Positions 32,689 to 64,000 of a DNA stretch of 64,000 bases are shown in pieces. The notes beneath the pieces were generated by a model. The model ran no database searches. It saw nothing but the letters and a program-made list of their open reading frames with translations, and was not told the DNA's origin. A program made the position numbers and the translations under genes. How positions within the stretch are numbered: the first letter of the stretch is position 1; each line of letters starts with the position of its first letter. Where the stretch lies: assembly GCA_020852755.1 (NCBI GenBank), contig JADZAF010000326.1:1-64000 (forward strand). The letters are read 5' to 3'. The stretch comes from Bryobacterales bacterium (GTDB taxonomy: Bacteria > Acidobacteriota > Terriglobia > Bryobacterales > Bryobacteraceae).

Positions 32689-34032
32689 TCAGCCTGGGGC
32701 CTCACGGACCGGGAAGTCGGGCGAGTCGGTGCGGGCACGCGCCAGCAATTGTTCCAGCTTCGCGGCTTCCGCCGGGTACCGGCTCGCCACATCGCTCTTC
32801 TCTCCGGGGTCGTCCCTGAGGTGGTACAGTTCGAGCGGGCGTCGTGTTCCCAAGCGCACGCCCTTCCAGTCTCCCGCTCGCACCGCCTGGCTGAAGCCCC
32901 GTTCGTGGAACTCCCAGTACAGGAATTCGTGCTGGCGCTGCCGGCGTCCCTCCAGGGCGGGCAGCATGGAGATGCCGCTGATGCCGGCGGGCGGCTGGAT
33001 TCCCGCGATCTCCGCCGCCGTCGGCAGGAAATCCCAGAAGGCCCACACCTGGTCGCTGGCTCCGGGGCGGATGCGCCCGGGCCAGCGGGCCAGCATGGGA
33101 ACGCGGATGCCGCCTTCGTACAGGTCGCGCTTGATGCCCCGCAGAGGGCCGCTGCTGCGGAAAAACTCGGGCTCGTGGCCGCCTTCGCGGTGCGGGCCGT
33201 TGTCGCTTGAGAAAAAAACAAGAGTGTTTCCGTCCAGCCCGAGCGACTCCAGTTTCGCCATGATCCTGCCCACGTCCCCGTCCAGACGGGTCAGCATGGC
33301 CGCGAAGTTCTTCTCCGTCTGCGGCCAGGGGCGCGAGGAGAACGGCTCGTCGCCGGGCACCTCCATGCCGTTGCCTGTGGCGCGGCCCAGTTCGTTATTG
33401 GCGTGCGGGATGGTGTAGGCCAGGTACAGGAAGAAAGGCCGGGCGCCGCCGTTCTTCTCAAGGAAGTTCAGGGCGCGTTCGGTGAAAAGGTCGTGCGAAT
33501 ACTGCTGCCGGGTGCCGAGATTGCCGGGCAGGATGCGCTCCTCCTGGTTCTCCCAGAGGTGATCGGGATAGTAGCTGTGGGCATGCTGCTGGTCGAGGTA
33601 GCCGAACCACTCGTCGAAGCCCTGCAGGTTGGGAATGCCCGTGCTGCCGGCGTTTCCCAGTCCCCACTTGCCGATGATGCCGGTGCGGTAGCCCGCGCTC
33701 TTGAGCAGTCTGGCCACGGTGACGTCCGTGGGGCGCAAAGGGACTCTCGCGTTGCCACGGATGCGTGCGTGCCCGGTGTCCAGCCCGGTCATGAGACAGC
33801 AGCGCGACGGAGCGCACACGGTGCTGCCGGCGTAACTCTGCGTGAAGCGCATTCCCTCGGCCCCGATCCGGTCGATGTGGGGCGTGGGAATCCGCTCCTG
33901 GCCGTAGCAGCCCAGGTCTCCGTAGCCCAGATCGTCGGCCAGGATGAACAGGATGTTGGGCCTGCGCGCGCCGCCCTGCGCCAGCGCCGGCGCCGCCGCC
34001 GTCTTCAGAAACTCTCTCCGGTTCCAAGGCAT
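32689..34032 (-). CDS. Exported type I sulfatase
   Basis: A 447-residue sulfatase of the alkaline-phosphatase superfamily. The leader MPWNRREFLKTAAAPALAQG is a twin-arginine signal. The metal site LADDLGYGDLGCYG and the core CAPSR (Cys73) are present; Cys73 is the residue converted to formylglycine by a maturase. A second metal block FFSSDNGPHREGG is also intact. Shine-Dalgarno GGAGG precedes the ATG. It likely removes sulfate from polysaccharides in the periplasm, but the substrate class is not determined. No sulfatase-maturating enzyme gene is adjacent. It is divergent from the SMP-30 gene. Confidence 0.92.
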   Translation of the reverse strand: MPWNRREFLKTAAAPALAQGGARRPNILFILADDLGYGDLGCYGQERIPTPHIDRIGAEGMRFTQSYAGSTVCAPSRCCLMTGLDTGHARIRGNARVPLRPTDVTVARLLKSAGYRTGIIGKWGLGNAGSTGIPNLQGFDEWFGYLDQQHAHSYYPDHLWENQEERILPGNLGTRQQYSHDLFTERALNFLEKNGGARPFFLYLAYTIPHANNELGRATGNGMEVPGDEPFSSRPWPQTEKNFAAMLTRLDGDVGRIMAKLESLGLDGNTLVFFSSDNGPHREGGHEPEFFRSSGPLRGIKRDLYEGGIRVPMLARWPGRIRPGASDQVWAFWDFLPTAAEIAGIQPPAGISGISMLPALEGRRQRQHEFLYWEFHERGFSQAVRAGDWKGVRLGTRRPLELYHLRDDPGEKSDVASRYPAEAAKLEQLLARARTDSPDFPVREAPG

Positions 34033-34101
34033 GGCATCAGCCCTCCATGGTACTCTCCGCCCGCGGAGCGGCGCACGTTCTATGCCCTGCTCCCCCTACG
34101 C

Positions 34102-34107
34102 TATACT
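34102..34107 (+). promoter_or_regulatory. -10-like box for the SMP-30 gene (near-leaderless)
   Basis: TATACT ends 10 nt before the ATG at 34118, with no Shine-Dalgarno sequence in between. Confidence 0.45.
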
Positions 34108-34117
34108 GGCCTCCACG

Positions 34118-35158
34118 ATGAGACTCGATCGCCGCTCGTTTCTGTATTCGATTGCCGCTGCCTTGCCGCTCGAAGGGGCGCAACGCGATTGGACGGGACG
34201 CGAACCGGTCCGCTACCCCGACCCCGATGTTGTCGTGCTGGACAAGCGCTTCGCCAGATACAAGATCGGCAACACCCCCATCCAGCGCCTGTATACCGGC
34301 ACGCTCTGGGCGGAGGGCCCTGCCTGGAACGGGGTGGGCCGCTACCTGGTCTGGAGCGACATCCCCAACAACGTGCAAATGCGCTGGCTGGAAGAGGACG
34401 GCCACGTGACCGTGTTCCGCAACCCGGCCGGGAACAGCAACGGCAATACGTTCGACTGGAAAGGCCGCCAGATTTCCTGCGAGCACGGCAACCGCCGGGT
34501 GGTGCGCTACGAGCCCAACGGCGCCGTCACGGTGCTGGCCCGGGAGTGGCAGGGCAAGCCCCTGAACGCGCCGAACGATGTCGTGGTCCACCCCGACGAC
34601 GCCGTCTGGTTCACCGACCCCGGCTACGGGAGTCTCGCCAACTACGAAGGTAACAAGGGGCCGCTCGAACTGAAGGAAGCGGTCTATCGCATCGACTCCC
34701 AGTCGGGAAAGATGGACATGGTCACCGATGAGATTTACAAGCCCAACGGCCTCTGCTTCTCCCCGGACTACAAGAAACTCTACATCGCCGAAACCGGCTC
34801 GACGCATTATCCGGATGCGCCCAGGAACATCAAGGTCTGGGACGTGGTGGATGGCCGCAAGCTGGCCAATGGCAGGGTCTTCACCTCCATGGAGCTGCCC
34901 GGCAAGGGCTCCGGCATCGCCGACGGCATCCGGGCCGACACCGACGGCAACATCTGGGCCGCCGCCGGCTGGGTGGGGGCGGGGTATGACGGCGTGCATA
35001 TCTTCACTCCGCAAGGCGAGCGCATCGGCATGATCCTGCTGCCGGAGATCTGCTCCAACCTGTGCTTCGGCGGCACCCGCCGCAACCGGCTGTTCATGAC
35101 CGGCAGCCAGTCCTTGTACGCCGTGTACGTCGAGACACAGGGAGCGCACATCACGTAA
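34118..35158 (+). CDS. SMP-30/gluconolactonase-family secreted protein
   Basis: A 346-residue six-bladed beta-propeller. It begins MRLDRRSFLYSIAAALPLEG, a twin-arginine-like leader. Propeller motifs of the SMP-30/gluconolactonase family are visible: EGPAWNG, NGNTFDWKGR, NAPNDVVVHPDDAVWFTDPGYG, PNGLCFSPD and ADGIRADTDGNIW. The Glu, Asn and Asp residues of these motifs form the divalent-metal site. The likely activity is sugar lactone hydrolysis in the periplasm. The start was set by the leader and the -10 box; the ORF opening at 33944 is antisense to the sulfatase and is rejected. Confidence 0.9.
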   Translation: MRLDRRSFLYSIAAALPLEGAQRDWTGREPVRYPDPDVVVLDKRFARYKIGNTPIQRLYTGTLWAEGPAWNGVGRYLVWSDIPNNVQMRWLEEDGHVTVFRNPAGNSNGNTFDWKGRQISCEHGNRRVVRYEPNGAVTVLAREWQGKPLNAPNDVVVHPDDAVWFTDPGYGSLANYEGNKGPLELKEAVYRIDSQSGKMDMVTDEIYKPNGLCFSPDYKKLYIAETGSTHYPDAPRNIKVWDVVDGRKLANGRVFTSMELPGKGSGIADGIRADTDGNIWAAAGWVGAGYDGVHIFTPQGERIGMILLPEICSNLCFGGTRRNRLFMTGSQSLYAVYVETQGAHIT

Positions 35159-52535: not shown

Positions 52536-53636
52536 TCAGGCCAGGTCGAAGCGCTTCACCTCGATCTTGGCGTCGTCGAACACGCCCAGGCCCAGCAATC
52601 CGGCAAGTTCGACGTGTTCCACCTGGCAGTTGAACCAATGGCTGTCGGCATCGGGCTTGGAGAGCGCGATGGAGGCCATGCCCACTTCCTTGCGCTTGTC
52701 GTCCAGCACTTTCCACCCGACCTTGTCCAGCGCGACGGGGTCGGTTCCAAAGTACATGGTCTTGTGTTCCCACTGGTACTTGGGCCGGCCGCCGGGACCG
52801 CCGTGGTACTGCGCTTTGATGCCGTCCACAATGTGCAGGACGGCCTTCTGGCGGATCACCGGCAGGTTCACCACCGCGGGGATGAAGGTGCCGCAGGCAT
52901 TGGCCGTCGGCGTCACGTGGCTGCGCCGCACGTTGTTGACCAGGCCGTGCGACATGTTCTTGAGCGTGATGGTGATGCCCGCCGACTGGTGGTGTTTCAC
53001 CACCGGCAGGTTGACGAATTTGTTGATCTGCTTGGTCAGAACCAGGCTCGCATAGGAGCGGCGCACGTGCTCATCGCTGGGGTTCTGGCCGGGAAGGCAA
53101 AGCGCCATGTCCACGTACACGTCGGGGTCGTAGCCGTTGATGTTCTGTTGGACCTCTTCGTACGCCTCGGCGGACCAGGCGATGCGGACTCCTTCCGGCA
53201 GCCACCGGTTGATGCGGGCATCGAACATCTCGCGGCGGTAGCGGTTGAAGACCACGATGTTGCCCGGCTTGACGCCGGCCTGCTTCAACCCGTCCACGAT
53301 CTGATGGAGCACAGTCGCGTCAGAGCTCATGCGCGCGCCGCCGACCGGGCACACCTTGATGCCCACGACATCGCTGGGTTCGAAGAAGACCCGCCAGGCG
53401 TCCGGCCAGCCGGGCGCGCCGGTCAGTTCCATCATGCCTTTGTGCATCATGTTCCTGACAGGCTCGGCCTGGTAGGCGCCGGAAACGATCGAACCCGGAT
53501 GTTGAACCGCGATGACCCGGCCGGGATACGGTCCGGGAATTCCCAGTTTGGAGACTGCGGCCCGCGCGGGCGAGAAACGCGCCGCGGAGGCGGCCAGCAA
53601 CGATGCTTGCAGAAGATCACGGCGAGACTGCTGCAT
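52536..53636 (-). CDS. DUF362-domain exported protein
   Basis: A 366-residue protein. The ATG at 53636 gives the twin-arginine leader MQQSRRDLLQASLLAASAARF; the ORF's first 13 codons are dropped. A DUF362 domain follows: VVGIKVCPVGGARMSSD, FNRYRREMFDARI, FVNLPVVKHHQSAGITITLKNMSHG, and HIVDGIKAQYHGGPGG. No ferredoxin CxxC motif is present, unlike many DUF362 proteins. The function is unknown. TACAAT ends 7 nt before the ATG, so the gene may have its own leaderless promoter as well as read-through from the isomerase gene 86 nt upstream. Confidence 0.85.
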   Translation of the reverse strand: MQQSRRDLLQASLLAASAARFSPARAAVSKLGIPGPYPGRVIAVQHPGSIVSGAYQAEPVRNMMHKGMMELTGAPGWPDAWRVFFEPSDVVGIKVCPVGGARMSSDATVLHQIVDGLKQAGVKPGNIVVFNRYRREMFDARINRWLPEGVRIAWSAEAYEEVQQNINGYDPDVYVDMALCLPGQNPSDEHVRRSYASLVLTKQINKFVNLPVVKHHQSAGITITLKNMSHGLVNNVRRSHVTPTANACGTFIPAVVNLPVIRQKAVLHIVDGIKAQYHGGPGGRPKYQWEHKTMYFGTDPVALDKVGWKVLDDKRKEVGMASIALSKPDADSHWFNCQVEHVELAGLLGLGVFDDAKIEVKRFDLA

Positions 53637-53643
53637 AGCCACG

Positions 53644-53649
53644 ATTGTA
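53644..53649 (-). promoter_or_regulatory. -10 box for the DUF362 gene (leaderless type)
   Basis: On the minus strand TACAAT ends 7 nt before the ATG at 53636, with no Shine-Dalgarno between them. Confidence 0.45.
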
Positions 53650-53722
53650 CCGAGTTTCCGGCACGGGTTATGCAACCCGGAACGGCTGTGGCTCGGAATG
53701 TTTTCGCTGACTGACGTCCCGC

Positions 53723-55228
53723 CTACACATCCTCCTCGACCAGCGTGTATCCGATGAACGCGGCCGCATCCTTAAGGCGTTCCCGGAAGTCGCCGAAGGT
53801 GGCGCAGCGGTGTACGCCGTACTTGTCGGGATACACGTATCGAATCACCTTTTTGGCATCGACCGATGCCACGATCTTGGTCCTTCACATCATTTCCCAA
53901 AGATGGTCCCGGTACTTCACCGGGCCCGCCAGCATGTGGACGGTCTTGCCGGTATGTACCAGGATCTCCTTGTTCAGTACCTCGATCTGCCACATAGTGA
54001 CCGGCTCGCCGGCCGGATAGAGCACCCACGAAGCCCCGCCCACGCCGGTCGCGTTGCGCGCCCGCACCCGCCGCTCGCGATGGTCCGTGAGAATGTACGG
54101 CGTTCGCCGCCGGTCGCCCCAGGGATTCCAGGGCCCCTCGCAGTGCTGCACGCAGGAGGTGTTGTTGTAGGTGTCCACCGAGTAGTCGCCCAACATGCTG
54201 GGGCGCCCGTAGGCATACTGCAGCATCATCTCCGACAACAGGATATTGAGGTGCGACTGGCACTTGGCCACCGTGTTGTGCAACTGGAACTCGGACACCG
54301 CCAGGGCCGGAAAAACCATGTCCTCGGGGCGCGCGTCCTTCACCAGCGCCCGGATATGGAAGGCCATGGCCGTGGCGCCGTGCTTCTCCATCAGCATCTT
54401 CATCGCGAGATACAGCTTGGCCGAGCGCACGATCTCCGGCTCGATGGTGTAGGTCATCTTCTGCGCGGCCCGGATCCAGCGCTGCGCGATCTGCTTCGCT
54501 TCCCGGCTGTCGTTGTGCCAGAGGTTCTGTATGTCCTTGTCCTCGGTCACCTCCTTGCTGCCGATGCGCGTGACTTTCGTTCCGAAGGTCTGATCGATGG
54601 CCGCCAGCATGGTCTCGTTGTAGCGGGCGGGCGGGCTCTTGAGAAGATCGCCGTAGAAGACGTTGACGTACTTTGAGTCGGTCACGGTCAGGATGTGCTC
54701 GCTCTTCATGCGTTTCAGCATCCCGATCAGTTTGATCTGCGCCGCCAGGTCCTGGAACATCCGCTCGGACACGGCCGGGTCGGCGCAGAACCGCCAGGGG
54801 TCCAGCATGGCGCCGACCGTGCGGTTCTGCCGGAACACCGGGTAGGGGATGTTCATGAAGTCGTTCAGAACCGCGACGTTGATGGTCGGCAGCCCGGTTC
54901 TCAGCAGATCGTAGTCGCGGGGCCATCCGTACACGATGACCCCGTCGTAGTTCAGCCGCTTCAGATCCCGGGCCTCGTTGAGCACCGCCGCCATCTGGGC
55001 GTCCCGGGTCAGGTCCCGCACCGTGAACTCCACGCCCGGACACGCTTTCTCCAGGCGCCGGACAATCTCCTCGTGCGGTATGGGTCGCAGGCCGGTGTCG
55101 TCTTCCGACGGCGCCACGCTGAAGAAGACCGAATAGATGCGGGTGGGACTGCCGCTGCGGGCGGCCTGGGGCGCCAGGGCAAGCGCCAGCGGCGCGCCGA
55201 GAAAGCTGCGGCGGGTTATCGCGGACAT
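53723..55228 (-). CDS. L-fucose/arabinose isomerase-like protein with in-frame TGA; candidate selenoprotein
   Basis: The annotated ORF of 447 residues ends at TGA (53885-53887), but the same frame continues for 53 sense codons to TAG (53723-53725). The extension reads RTKIVASVDAKK, then VIRYVYPDKYGVHRC and TFGDFRERLKDAAAFIGY, and is plainly protein-like (about 77% GC3). Read through, the product is 501 residues with residue 448 as Sec. The N-terminus has a twin-arginine leader (TRRSFLGAPLAL), so the enzyme is probably exported. The main body resembles the L-fucose/L-arabinose isomerase fold: SCVQHCEGPWNPWGD and TPYILTDHRERR carry likely metal or substrate residues. From memory of the family, homologues end in a C-RTK-type motif, which would place Cys where this gene has TGA; this must be checked. 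A nonsense mutation or assembly error remains possible. Gene order deoC, TIM barrel, DUF1080, this gene suggests one operon. Confidence 0.75.
53854..53871 (-). promoter_or_regulatory. Candidate bacterial SECIS hairpin after the in-frame TGA
   Basis: On the minus strand TGGCATC-GGTC-GATGCCA forms a perfect 7-bp stem with a GGUC tetraloop (53861-53864). The loop begins 20 nt after the TGA at 53885-53887, within the distance seen for bacterial SECIS elements. GGUC is also the core of the apical loop in the E. coli fdhF SECIS. The hairpin lies inside the coding sequence, as expected for bacteria. Confidence 0.65.
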
Positions 55229-55241
55229 GGCGCTCCGGCTC

Positions 55242-55916
55242 CTACAGTTCCCGGATCCGCAGGTTGCGCCAGCGCACCTGGTAGGGCTTGTACTTCTCTT
55301 TCGGCACCTGGTGCACCTGCAGCCCGATGATGCCGCGCGTGGTCATGGAATCACGGAAGTCGGCCGCCGGCACGCCGTTCACCCAGGTCCTGATGGAATC
55401 GCCCTTGCACTCCACCCGGTACTTGTTCCACTTGCCGTCCTTGAAGGCCTTCTGAGCGGCCGGCTTGCCGCTGAAGTCGTCCAGAAAGACGGCCCGGCGC
55501 GCTTCGTCATAGACGTTTCCGGCGTCCTTGCTGTTGGCGGCGATCTCCACCTGGTATCCGTACACGCGGTCCGGGGGCAGCTTGCGCTCGATTTCCTTCC
55601 CGTTCTGCACGACTTTCAGCACGGTGTTGGGGCCCGCGATCAGGCTGCGGAATTGCACCCCGGAATTCAGTTCGGAGTCCACCTTCACCTCGAAGTCCAG
55701 GATGAAGTCGCCATACTCCCTGTTGGTGCACAGGAACGTGTTGGGGCTGCCCAGCACGGTGGTCCCGACGATGGTCTTGTTCTCCACCTTGTAGGTGGCC
55801 GTGCCGCTATGAACCGTCCAGCCATCCAGGCTTTTGCCGTCAAACAGGCGCTCCCAACCGGCGCCCAGGCAGGAACCGGCCAGGACCAGCGCCAGCATTG
55901 CGTTCTTCAGGAACAT
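55242..55916 (-). CDS. DUF1080 (3-keto-disaccharide hydrolase-like) secreted protein
   Basis: A 224-residue protein with a signal peptide (MFLKNAMLALVLAGSCLG). The DUF1080 lectin-like/glycosidase domain follows: GWERLFDGKSLDGWTVHSG at the N-terminus, DFILDFEVKVDSELNSGVQFRS, YGYQVEI and the final GIIGLQVHQ and VRWRNLRIREL. The conserved Glu/Gln surface fits carbohydrate binding or hydrolysis. AGGAG is 9 nt before the ATG. It begins 28 nt after the TIM-barrel gene and ends 13 nt before the isomerase-like gene, so it is part of the same operon. The longer ORF to 56051 overlaps the upstream gene and is rejected. Confidence 0.88.
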   Translation of the reverse strand: MFLKNAMLALVLAGSCLGAGWERLFDGKSLDGWTVHSGTATYKVENKTIVGTTVLGSPNTFLCTNREYGDFILDFEVKVDSELNSGVQFRSLIAGPNTVLKVVQNGKEIERKLPPDRVYGYQVEIAANSKDAGNVYDEARRAVFLDDFSGKPAAQKAFKDGKWNKYRVECKGDSIRTWVNGVPAADFRDSMTTRGIIGLQVHQVPKEKYKPYQVRWRNLRIREL

Positions 55917-55944
55917 GATTCGGTCTCCTCTCACCAGTTTTCCG

Positions 55945-56862
55945 TCACGGCAGGAACTGCCGCAGATAGCGTCCGCTTTGCCGCAGGGCCGCCTTGCGAT
56001 CTTCCAAAGTACTTTCGTAGGCGCGGTCTTCCACTTCCACGCAAACCGCACCGCGGTAGCCGGTTTCCGTCAGGACCGAGAAGAAACGGCCCCAGTCGAC
56101 GTCGCCCAGGCCCGGCAGCTTGGGCGAATGATATTCCAGGGGATGCGCCAGGATGCCCACCTGGTCGAGCCGCTCCTGGTCCAGCCGTACGTCCTTGGCG
56201 TGCACATGGAAAATGCGGCCGGCGAATTCCCGCAGCGGTTTCAAATAGTCCATGCGCTGCCAGATGCAGTGCGACGGGTCGAAGTTCAATCCGAAATTCT
56301 CGTCGGGGATGTCGCTGAACATGCGCCGCCAGATGGCTGGCGAGATGGCCAGGTTCTTGCCTCCCGGCCACTCGTCCCGGGTGAAGAGCATCGGGCAGTT
56401 CTCGATGGCGATGCGCACTCCCTGGTCGGCGGCGAAGCGGACCAGGGGCCGCCACACTTTCAGGAAGCGGGGCCAGTTCTCTTCCACGCTGCGCGTCCAG
56501 TCCCGACCGATGAAAGTGTTCACCACCCTGACCTCCAGGGCCCGCGCCGCCTGGATCACCTTGCGCAGATGATCGACAGCCACCTTGGCCTCGTCCGGGT
56601 CGGGGGCCAGCGGGTTGGGATAGTAGCCCAGGCCGCTGATGGCCACTCCGGCGGCCGCCACTTTCTCCCGGGTCCGTTCCGCTTCGCCCGGGCTGAAGGC
56701 CGACACGTCCAGGTGGGTCACCCCGGCGTAGCGCCGTTCGGCTTTCCCTCTCGGCCAGCACATCAGTTCCACGCAATCGAAGCGGGCGGAGGAGGCCAGG
56801 CACACCACGTCGTCGAGCGTCAGGTCCGCAAGAATCGCACTGACAAAACCGAGTGTCATCAT
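55945..56862 (-). CDS. Sugar phosphate isomerase/epimerase-like TIM barrel (cytoplasmic)
   Basis: A 305-residue xylose-isomerase-like TIM barrel without an export signal. Metal-site strands: [10 protein letters not shown] (Glu), [13 protein letters not shown] (Asp/His), [10 protein letters not shown] (His/Asp) and [11 protein letters not shown] (Glu). The deoC stop ends just before it. A TTG three nt earlier was given as the start in the longest reading; one of the two following ATG codons (56862 or 56859) is more likely. The gene lies between deoC and DUF1080 in the same direction, and probably acts on a sugar released by the exported enzymes. Confidence 0.87.
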
Positions 56863-56865
56863 CAA

Positions 56866-61882: not shown

Positions 61883-64000
61883 TCAGCAGGTGACCACTTC
61901 CAGCCCGCGGCCGTTGATGTCGAAATCGAAGAAACGCGAGCGCTCGTTGAGCGGCTGCCGCTCCAGCGCCGCCCGCACCCTGGCCGCGTCGCCGGGCGAT
62001 TTGCAGATCATCAGCAGGAAGCCGCCGCTGCCCGCACCCGAAATGCGCATGCCGTGCACGTGCGGCCGGGCGCGCGCCAGCAGACACTCGATGGATTCGT
62101 TGGTCACGTCGCGGCACAGACGCTTCTGCAACTCCCAGGCTTCATTCACGTGGCGGCCGAAGTCGGCCGGGTCCTTGCGCCCCATGGCGTCGGCGATGGC
62201 GTGCGCCACCTCGTGCTCCCGGGCCAGCGTCGCCATGATGCCGCGGTCCCGGTTCAGATAGCCGCCCACCACCTGGTGCAGGATATTCTTCGCCAGGCGG
62301 GTGAGGCCGGTGTAGTAAAGCAGCGTCGAGCCGCCGTTCAACTTCGGATCGAACAGGTCGCCGGGGACGTAGTGAATGCGCGGGTCGGGAAACATCCCGG
62401 GACGGGTGCTGGTAAGCTTGGCGCCACCCACGCCGCCGCCGATCTGGTCCTGCCATCCGCCCCCCGTTGTGAGTGCCTGTTCCAGCCGCAGCACTTCATG
62501 GAAGATCACGCGCGGGTCCAGGCCGCGACCCAGCATGCGCCGGATCACAGCCACGATGACCGCTCCCAGGATGCTCGACGTCCCCAGGCCGCTGCCCTTC
62601 GGGATGCCCACCAGGGTAGTGAGTTCGATGCCCCCTCCGAAATCCTCCAGCATGCGCCGTAAAGTGATGCCCGGCCCCCAGCCGCCCGTCCGGGGTGAGA
62701 AGCCGGAGATAGCCAGCGCGGCCTTGGTCAGCGCGAAGCGGTCCTCCGGCCGGCGATAGTCGAGGAGTTCCTCCAGGCTGCCGACCTCCACGTGCAGCCC
62801 GCCGTCGATCGAGCTCAGCCGGATCACGGGCTCTCCGATGATACGGCCGTAGCAGTGGATGGGCGGCTGGCCGTTCAGATTGATCGCCACGTTGGTGACA
62901 TCGCCGCCATGCTCCAGCGAATAGGGCGGCGTGTCGGTCCATCCGCCGCCCAGTTCCAGCCGGGCGGGAGCGCGTCCCCAGACGGTTTCATCCGGCCGCA
63001 GAACGTTGCGCGGCCGTCCGGACGGGTGCAGCGAACTGGCCAGGATGGCCCGGTTCAGTTCCTGGAAGGCCGCCGCGCGCAGCCGCTCGCCCGGCGCGCC
63101 GCTGCTCTCCGAATCATTGAGCGGCGCGTCAACCGAAGCCAGCCAGTCCAGTGTGGGGCGCGGCAATCGCGGCGCGGCCCTGCCGAAAACCAGCGGGACT
63201 GCGGCGCCAGCGGAGTGCAGAATCCGGCAGGCGCTGAAGGATTCCAGCCCGCCGCTCGTCAGGCCCGCCTCGCGGTTCGATCGCGCCAGGGACAGCAGGT
63301 CGGCCAGGAATTCCTCGGGGCGCTCTGAATTCCGCACGGCACAGGCCAGGTCGTCCGAGGAGAACGGGCTGGCAGGATGAAACAGCGCGGCCAGCGAGCG
63401 CCGCACGACCGCGGCGCGAATTCCCGCGCGGCGGGCATGAAACGCTTCCTGGCACGCCAGCACCGCGATCTCGGCCGAACTGTAGCGGGCGGCCTGGCGA
63501 AAGGCGCGCCGCTCTTCGTCTGTGGCCCGTTCCGGCGCGAACATCCAGATCCAGCGGCGGTAGCCTTGCGGATCGCTCTCGGCAGGAAACACGCGCGCGT
63601 TCCACAGGATCCGCTCCGCGCCCTCGTCCCATACCGCATCCGGGTCCAGTCCCGCCGAAGCCAGCCACTCTTCGATCTGCCGCCCATGGAAGCGCGCGTC
63701 CTTGAAGGCATCCTCGATGCCGTAGCAGCGCACGAACCAGGCACGCTCCCCATCGTGCTTGCGGCCCTCCAGCACGTCCAGGCAGGCGTTCTCCGGCAGG
63801 GCCAGGGGCCGCTCCACGTCGAGGCCGGCCGCCAGGTTGCTGCCCGCAAGATTCAGCGGCGCGGTGAGGCGGCAGCCCTCCACCCAGGCGTCGCGCCCGG
63901 CGATGCCGCCTGCCTCGCGAACCTCGTTGTTCAGCGCCAGTACGGTGGAGGCGGATGCCGCGCCGCGGTCCCGGGCGGTCAGCGCCAGCCCGCTGGCGAT
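61883..64000 (-). CDS. fkp: Bifunctional fucokinase/GDP-fucose pyrophosphorylase (N-terminus beyond window)
   Basis: The frame stays open to the window edge, so the visible 705 residues are the C-terminal part; the N-terminal part with most of the guanylyltransferase domain lies outside. The Met at 63883 is an internal GTG within WVEGCRL, not a start. The GHMP kinase portion is complete: WGRAPARLELGGGWTDTPPYS, the ATP loop IPKGSGLGTSSILGA and the late ISGAGSGGFLLM. In Bacteroides FKP this protein converts L-fucose to fucose-1-phosphate and then GDP-fucose. This gives fucose for surface polysaccharides. Its location at the end of the sugar cluster agrees with the fucose-isomerase-like gene upstream. 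Confidence 0.88.
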   Translation of the reverse strand: MASGLALTARDRGAASASTVLALNNEVREAGGIAGRDAWVEGCRLTAPLNLAGSNLAAGLDVERPLALPENACLDVLEGRKHDGERAWFVRCYGIEDAFKDARFHGRQIEEWLASAGLDPDAVWDEGAERILWNARVFPAESDPQGYRRWIWMFAPERATDEERRAFRQAARYSSAEIAVLACQEAFHARRAGIRAAVVRRSLAALFHPASPFSSDDLACAVRNSERPEEFLADLLSLARSNREAGLTSGGLESFSACRILHSAGAAVPLVFGRAAPRLPRPTLDWLASVDAPLNDSESSGAPGERLRAAAFQELNRAILASSLHPSGRPRNVLRPDETVWGRAPARLELGGGWTDTPPYSLEHGGDVTNVAINLNGQPPIHCYGRIIGEPVIRLSSIDGGLHVEVGSLEELLDYRRPEDRFALTKAALAISGFSPRTGGWGPGITLRRMLEDFGGGIELTTLVGIPKGSGLGTSSILGAVIVAVIRRMLGRGLDPRVIFHEVLRLEQALTTGGGWQDQIGGGVGGAKLTSTRPGMFPDPRIHYVPGDLFDPKLNGGSTLLYYTGLTRLAKNILHQVVGGYLNRDRGIMATLAREHEVAHAIADAMGRKDPADFGRHVNEAWELQKRLCRDVTNESIECLLARARPHVHGMRISGAGSGGFLLMICKSPGDAARVRAALERQPLNERSRFFDFDINGRGLEVVTC

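Follow-up and report, generated by a model that had tools for sequence, protein, structure and literature searches.

Most known selenoproteins are redox enzymes, many of which have a thioredoxin-like fold, or else metal enzymes, formate dehydrogenase being one example. A catalogue published in 2026 comprises 119 prokaryotic selenoprotein families (PMC13188914). No entry among these 119 families is a sugar isomerase or has the fold of L-arabinose isomerase (AraA) and L-fucose isomerase (FucI), the entry "thiol-disulfide isomerase-like" being a thioredoxin-type protein (PMC13188914). No sugar-isomerase selenoprotein is named in the main text of the deep-Sep and Peng papers either, and a search of the full-text literature for sugar isomerases, those of fucose and arabinose included, that are selenoproteins returned nothing relevant, a mention in Haft and Tolstoy 2025 or Deng et al. 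2026 being possible. The assertion in a preliminary description of the present locus that no selenoprotein of this type was known to have been described is consistent with the catalogue and with the literature searched. One of the two papers just named reportedly examined groundwater genomes, a habitat of two of the relatives, and may hold an unlisted candidate.

The gene described here lies in a 64-kb stretch of DNA, hereafter called the window, and shares with the catalogued families an in-frame UGA, a bSECIS-type hairpin and the existence of Cys homologues. Very probably the family is a new one among selenoproteins, with a fold that had not been listed for selenocysteine (Sec) before. The UGA at codon 448 is very likely decoded as Sec, and we hold with high confidence the joint reading of Sec insertion at this position in a protein of the AraA/FucI fold. 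The features of the locus are collected in Table 1. The minus-strand frame running from 55228 to 53723 has this TGA as its sole interruption, and the preliminary description had placed correctly both the end of the ORF at the TGA and the 53 open codons leading to a TAG. Within the window, one further TGA (45195) passes a crude filter for coding sequence on both sides.

Table 1. Features of the Sec-encoding locus and its immediate neighbours (window coordinates)
Feature	Coordinates	Strand	Basis
Gene of the Sec-containing AraA/FucI superfamily protein (probable), 501 residues, read through TGA	53723..55228	-	translation, homologues, fold search
Tat (twin-arginine) signal, N-terminal, predicted, MSAITRRSFLGAPLALALAPQAARS	55154..55228	-	RRxF motif
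Gln324, invariant in the Sec clade, position of superfamily metal ligand Glu306 (E. coli AraA numbering)	54257..54259	-	alignment
Asp348, conserved, near second metal-ligand position	54185..54187	-	alignment
His362 (QHC motif), conserved in superfamily alignment	54143..54145	-	alignment
In-frame TGA, codon 448, very likely read as selenocysteine	53885..53887	-	Cys in all distant homologues
C-terminal extension, 53 codons, then TAG stop (53723-53725); belongs to conserved domain	53723..53884	-	
bSECIS-type hairpin, 7-bp stem TGGCATC/GATGCCA, loop GGUC	53854..53871	-	sequence, folding, covariation
His473 (VHR motif), conserved C-terminal His, candidate metal ligand	53810..53812	-	alignment
Downstream neighbour, DUF362 protein (PF04015)	52539..53675	-	
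Upstream neighbour, 3-keto-disaccharide hydrolase family (PF06439)	55245..56051	-	
Further upstream, xylose-isomerase-like TIM barrel (PF01261)	55948..56865	-	

A peptide-pattern scan of a species-genome collection retrieved seven relatives with 65-72% identity, including representatives of Planctomycetota and Verrucomicrobiota, all seven with TGA at the same codon, and a whole-genome survey added three genes from the window's phylum, each with exactly one TGA. TGA occupies this codon in 11/11 close genes, which come from the window, from three further genomes of the same phylum and from Planctomycetota and Verrucomicrobiota, and because 11 genes share it, the sequencing error that had been considered earlier is excluded. 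Three phyla were surveyed, that of the window and those of two relatives (L018 and L019), with 388-396 genomes per survey, and no close member with Cys at codon 448 was found among these genomes. The family is rare: it was present in 4 of the 396 genomes from the window's phylum, its own genome counted, and in each of the draws from the other two phyla the seed genome alone had a Sec-clade gene; a plasmid search for the family gave no match. In the tree, the UGA genes group together (support 95/88) except for L046, which is placed on a long branch through a trimming artefact, its TGA terminator having been read through.

In all close genes the stretch following the TGA extends over 53-54 codons and ends with a separate stop (TAG, TAA or TGA). 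Comparison of each gene with that of the window gave for the extension a dN of about 0.09-0.20 and a dS of at least 0.6 where estimable, and the dN/dS constraint on it equals that on the codons just upstream of the TGA. The extension, which in the alignment holds the Arg and Thr of a C-R-T motif and the conserved His473, is by these values under purifying selection, and both the low dN relative to dS and the presence of these motifs agree with the initial proposal that it is the missing C-terminus of the protein. Distant homologues devoid of an internal stop were recovered with E-values of 1e-10 to 1e-33. They have Cys at the UGA-aligned column in 36/36 rows, 35 of these within the C-R-T motif (L060 aligns poorly), and the three residues of the motif are invariant in a mixed alignment of 23 proteins. 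The Cys that the preliminary description had given for homologues at residue 448 (CRTK-like) is found in every distant row, and none of the homologues ends at the position of the TGA, as all read on, the close clade through TGA and the distant proteins through Cys. This alternation of UGA and Cys at residue 448 has the pattern of a classical Cys/Sec pair.

Bacterial SECIS elements are described as having a stem of 4-16 bp and a loop of 3-9 nt, with a G in the first two loop positions and a distance of 16-37 nt from the UGA (PMC13188914). The window hairpin fits this published description (PMC13188914): it begins 13 nt past the TGA, its apical loop begins 20 nt past it, and the outer G and C of the GGUC loop make up an additional covarying pair, giving a stem of 7-8 bp. 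Its coordinates and structure had been correctly reported, and the claimed match to bacterial SECIS elements holds for position, stem and loop, with covariation in addition. For the eleven genes, folding of the 45-nt stretch that follows the TGA gave MFE values between -9.7 and -15.6; set against synonymous shuffles, the energy is unremarkable for most members (p 0.01-0.57), and for this reason it was not used as evidence. The support for the hairpin comes from covariation and position and not from energy alone. Since the protein sequence in the hairpin region is nearly fixed, mainly third codon positions are free to vary. At a first wobble pair, GCA occurs with GAT or GCG with GAC (A-U in five genes, G-C in five), and at a second, TCG with GTC or TCA with GTT (G-C in seven, A-U in three), with 0 exceptions among the 10 alignable genes at either pair, the rows being related and the 5/5 and 7/3 counts not representing independent events. 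As a control, sliding the partner by 1-3 columns reduced the paired cells from 96% to 13-66%. In one relative (L019), the loop region is longer by an inserted codon, and a hairpin still folds there.

The own genome of the window encodes selB (363 bits), selA (504 bits) and selD (364 bits), all above the curated cut-offs. Its selD has itself an in-frame Sec-UGA in the N-terminal loop (KAAG-U-ASKLSP) and a downstream hairpin (L034/L040, contig C362:11611-12534), so the organism uses UGA for Sec elsewhere. This selenophosphate synthetase resembles the present gene in its in-frame UGA, its downstream hairpin and the machinery on which both would depend, but belongs to an already known selenoprotein family. 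Among the four genes that the preliminary description had proposed to look for, selA, selB and a Sec-type selD are thus present, whereas selC was not found in the 398 contigs of the assembly: the matches to Rfam RF01852 were Ser, Leu, Gly, Tyr and Cys tRNAs, two sequence patterns and a covariance model derived from nine tRNA-Secs retrieved no tRNA-Sec, and there was none in the regions around selA, selB and selD. In two relatives (L117 and L119), selC sits between a sulfatase gene and a SMP-30-like gene; the window has sulfatase and SMP-30-like genes side by side (about 32750-35150), with no tRNA between them. A tRNA-Sec with anticodon UCA is present in 9 of the 10 other genomes carrying the Sec-clade gene, and 16 of 20 relatives searched have a tRNA-Sec that scores 68-80 bits, the ten that were checked all being called tRNA-SeC with UCA. 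The own tRNA-Sec is likely missing from the assembly through a draft gap.

Three other readings of the UGA codon have to be weighed against its decoding as Sec. An in-frame stop is by default read as the end of the protein, and a premature stop, whether due to a pseudogene, to sequencing error or to a functional terminus at the TGA, would also be in line with the lack of recognition of this protein by Pfam and NCBIfam; the identical TGA in 11 genes of three phyla, the purifying selection downstream of it, the location in the extension of the C-R-T and His motifs, invariant in the alignment, and the covarying hairpin make this reading extremely improbable. A genome-wide altered code with UGA as a sense codon would account for the open frame and nothing more, and it conflicts with the termination by TGA of three of the genes themselves (L017, L046 and L047) and with the presence of standard Sec machinery, which brings its probability to a negligible level, the lowest of the three. 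Decoding of UGA as Cys by a selC-like tRNA variant (selC* recoding) has been described, and the product would here carry Cys instead of Sec. The Cys of the distant homologues at residue 448 would suit this reading, and the own genome, in whose contigs no tRNA-Sec was found, may have such a variant. Against it stand selA and the Sec-type selD of the same genome, the ordinary tRNA-SeC(tca) called in the genomes sharing the gene and the occurrence of UGA in every member across three phyla, a distribution ill-suited to scattered recoding; it is very unlikely, if somewhat less so than the other two. Decoding as Sec is the reading retained in what follows.

The window protein matches no Pfam or NCBIfam model, and a profile built from the Sec clade only found no match in the PDB. 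The nearest named family of the Cys homologues is the sulfoquinovose isomerase SftI (NF048012), which they match with an E-value of 3e-16, in addition to weak matches to L-arabinose isomerase; a Cys homologue reaches 59 bits against a cut-off of 700 for SftI, and the Sec protein itself has no match to it. A mixed Cys and Sec profile retrieved E. coli AraA over its central domain (E 6e-7). The AlphaFold model of the Sec protein is of low confidence (mean pLDDT 47, pTM 0.49), as was an earlier one from eight Sec-clade sequences (pLDDT 37). With a low-confidence model as the Foldseek query, 38/38 PDB matches at E<0.001 were AraA/FucI enzymes, and VIA-align of a model of this low confidence gave Z 11.5-13.2 and rmsd 4.9-5.8 over 335-375 aligned residues for AraA/FucI, the only structures above Z 6, the next unrelated one being at Z 5.7. 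By this full-length match of its modelled fold to AraA (2ajt, 4f2d) and FucI (1fui), the Sec protein is assigned to the L-arabinose/L-fucose isomerase superfamily; at the level of sequence profiles, the match is that of the mixed profile to the central domain. It differs from these cytoplasmic, Sec-free enzymes by an identity of about 10% and by a Gln in place of Glu306 of AraA, which we take to be a metal ligand.

At the Glu306 column of the alignment, Glu is found in the Cys family (CE-[AG]-D) and an invariant Gln in the Sec clade (CQSH), and both groups retain the Asp, the HC motif and the C-terminal His. Because this metal-ligand Glu is Gln throughout the Sec clade, aldose-ketose isomerase activity of the Sec protein is doubtful; of the initial designation "fucose/arabinose-isomerase-like", the part concerning the fold stands and the enzyme label is doubtful. 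The own genome also encodes two Cys-type Tat-signal paralogues (L061 on C46 and L065 on C271), and the Planctomycetota genome of L019 has another one (L019:171-1622) directly upstream of its Sec gene, on the same strand. These AraA/FucI-like proteins share with the Sec protein the Tat motif, the domain order, the CRT and HC motifs and the C-terminal His, but have Cys in place of UGA and only about 25% identity to it; L061 and L065 keep the metal-ligand Glu (CE-G/A-D motif).

In the mechanism that we propose, SelB and tRNA-Sec, guided by the hairpin after the UGA, would insert Sec at residue 448 and translation would run on to the TAG, a step that is well supported. The protein would subsequently be exported by the Tat system in a folded state, with Sec already in place. 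In the C-terminal domain, Sec448 would stand in for the Cys that is otherwise invariant in the C-R-T motif of the superfamily; it precedes by 25 residues the conserved His regarded as a candidate metal ligand, and would be near the active site, as the C-terminal domain provides a metal-binding His in the AraA/FucI fold; the model confidence (pLDDT 47) is too low to give a distance between Sec448 and the metal site. Outside the cytoplasm, the selenolate of Sec448, at or near the metal and substrate site, may act on a sugar-derived substrate as a ligand, a nucleophile or a redox group, a role that we put forward as tentative. The joint change from Glu to Gln and from Cys to Sec suggests an altered chemistry rather than plain isomerisation, owing to the replacement of the usual metal-ligand Glu in the Sec clade. 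That the loss of Glu and the gain of Sec amount to a new extracytoplasmic sugar chemistry, in a selenoenzyme family with Sec acting directly at the metal and substrate site of a sugar-isomerase fold, is possible and somewhat speculative. Alternatively, the selenoprotein may still catalyse aldose-ketose isomerisation, with a metal site completed by Gln324 or by a Glu or His close to it, and with Sec only tuning the enzyme or protecting it from oxidation; this is compatible with Sec insertion and concerns the chemical role only. The full-length fold match, the retention of Asp348, His362 and His473 and the sugar-catabolism genes close by would favour it, while the invariant Gln at the Glu306 equivalent and a Tat export that would bring the protein outside the cytoplasm, an unusual place for sugar isomerisation, weigh on the other side, and we consider it a possibility of limited likelihood.

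The use of selenium would be extended towards carbohydrate metabolism by a Sec protein with the fold of the arabinose and fucose isomerases. The family, apparently exported, has a thin distribution across Planctomycetota, Verrucomicrobiota and the phylum of the window. Its genes are cut short in automatic annotation, immediately ahead of the conserved C-terminal stretch, and such truncation at the UGA may be the reason for their absence from the catalogues. Export of the Sec protein by the Tat system is predicted from the motif only: the signal in the window (RRSFL...ALALA) combines RRxF and a hydrophobic stretch, similar signals occur in the relatives, the RRxF motif is present in nearly all family members, and the Pfam and NCBIfam TAT models match the Cys homologues weakly. 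Besides the neighbours given in Table 1, the window holds a second xylose-isomerase-like TIM barrel, Gfo/Idh/MocA oxidoreductases, an enolase-superfamily protein and a fucokinase-like protein, and the neighbours of the Sec gene are compatible with a carbohydrate setting. Among the relatives, we found no shared gene neighbourhood and no conserved operon indicating a substrate. The DUF362 gene, on the minus strand directly downstream of the Sec gene, is a possible operon partner. The fucokinase-like protein, encoded at 61886-63883 (minus strand), is fusion-like and combines a fucose-pyrophosphorylase fragment with a GHMP kinase domain.
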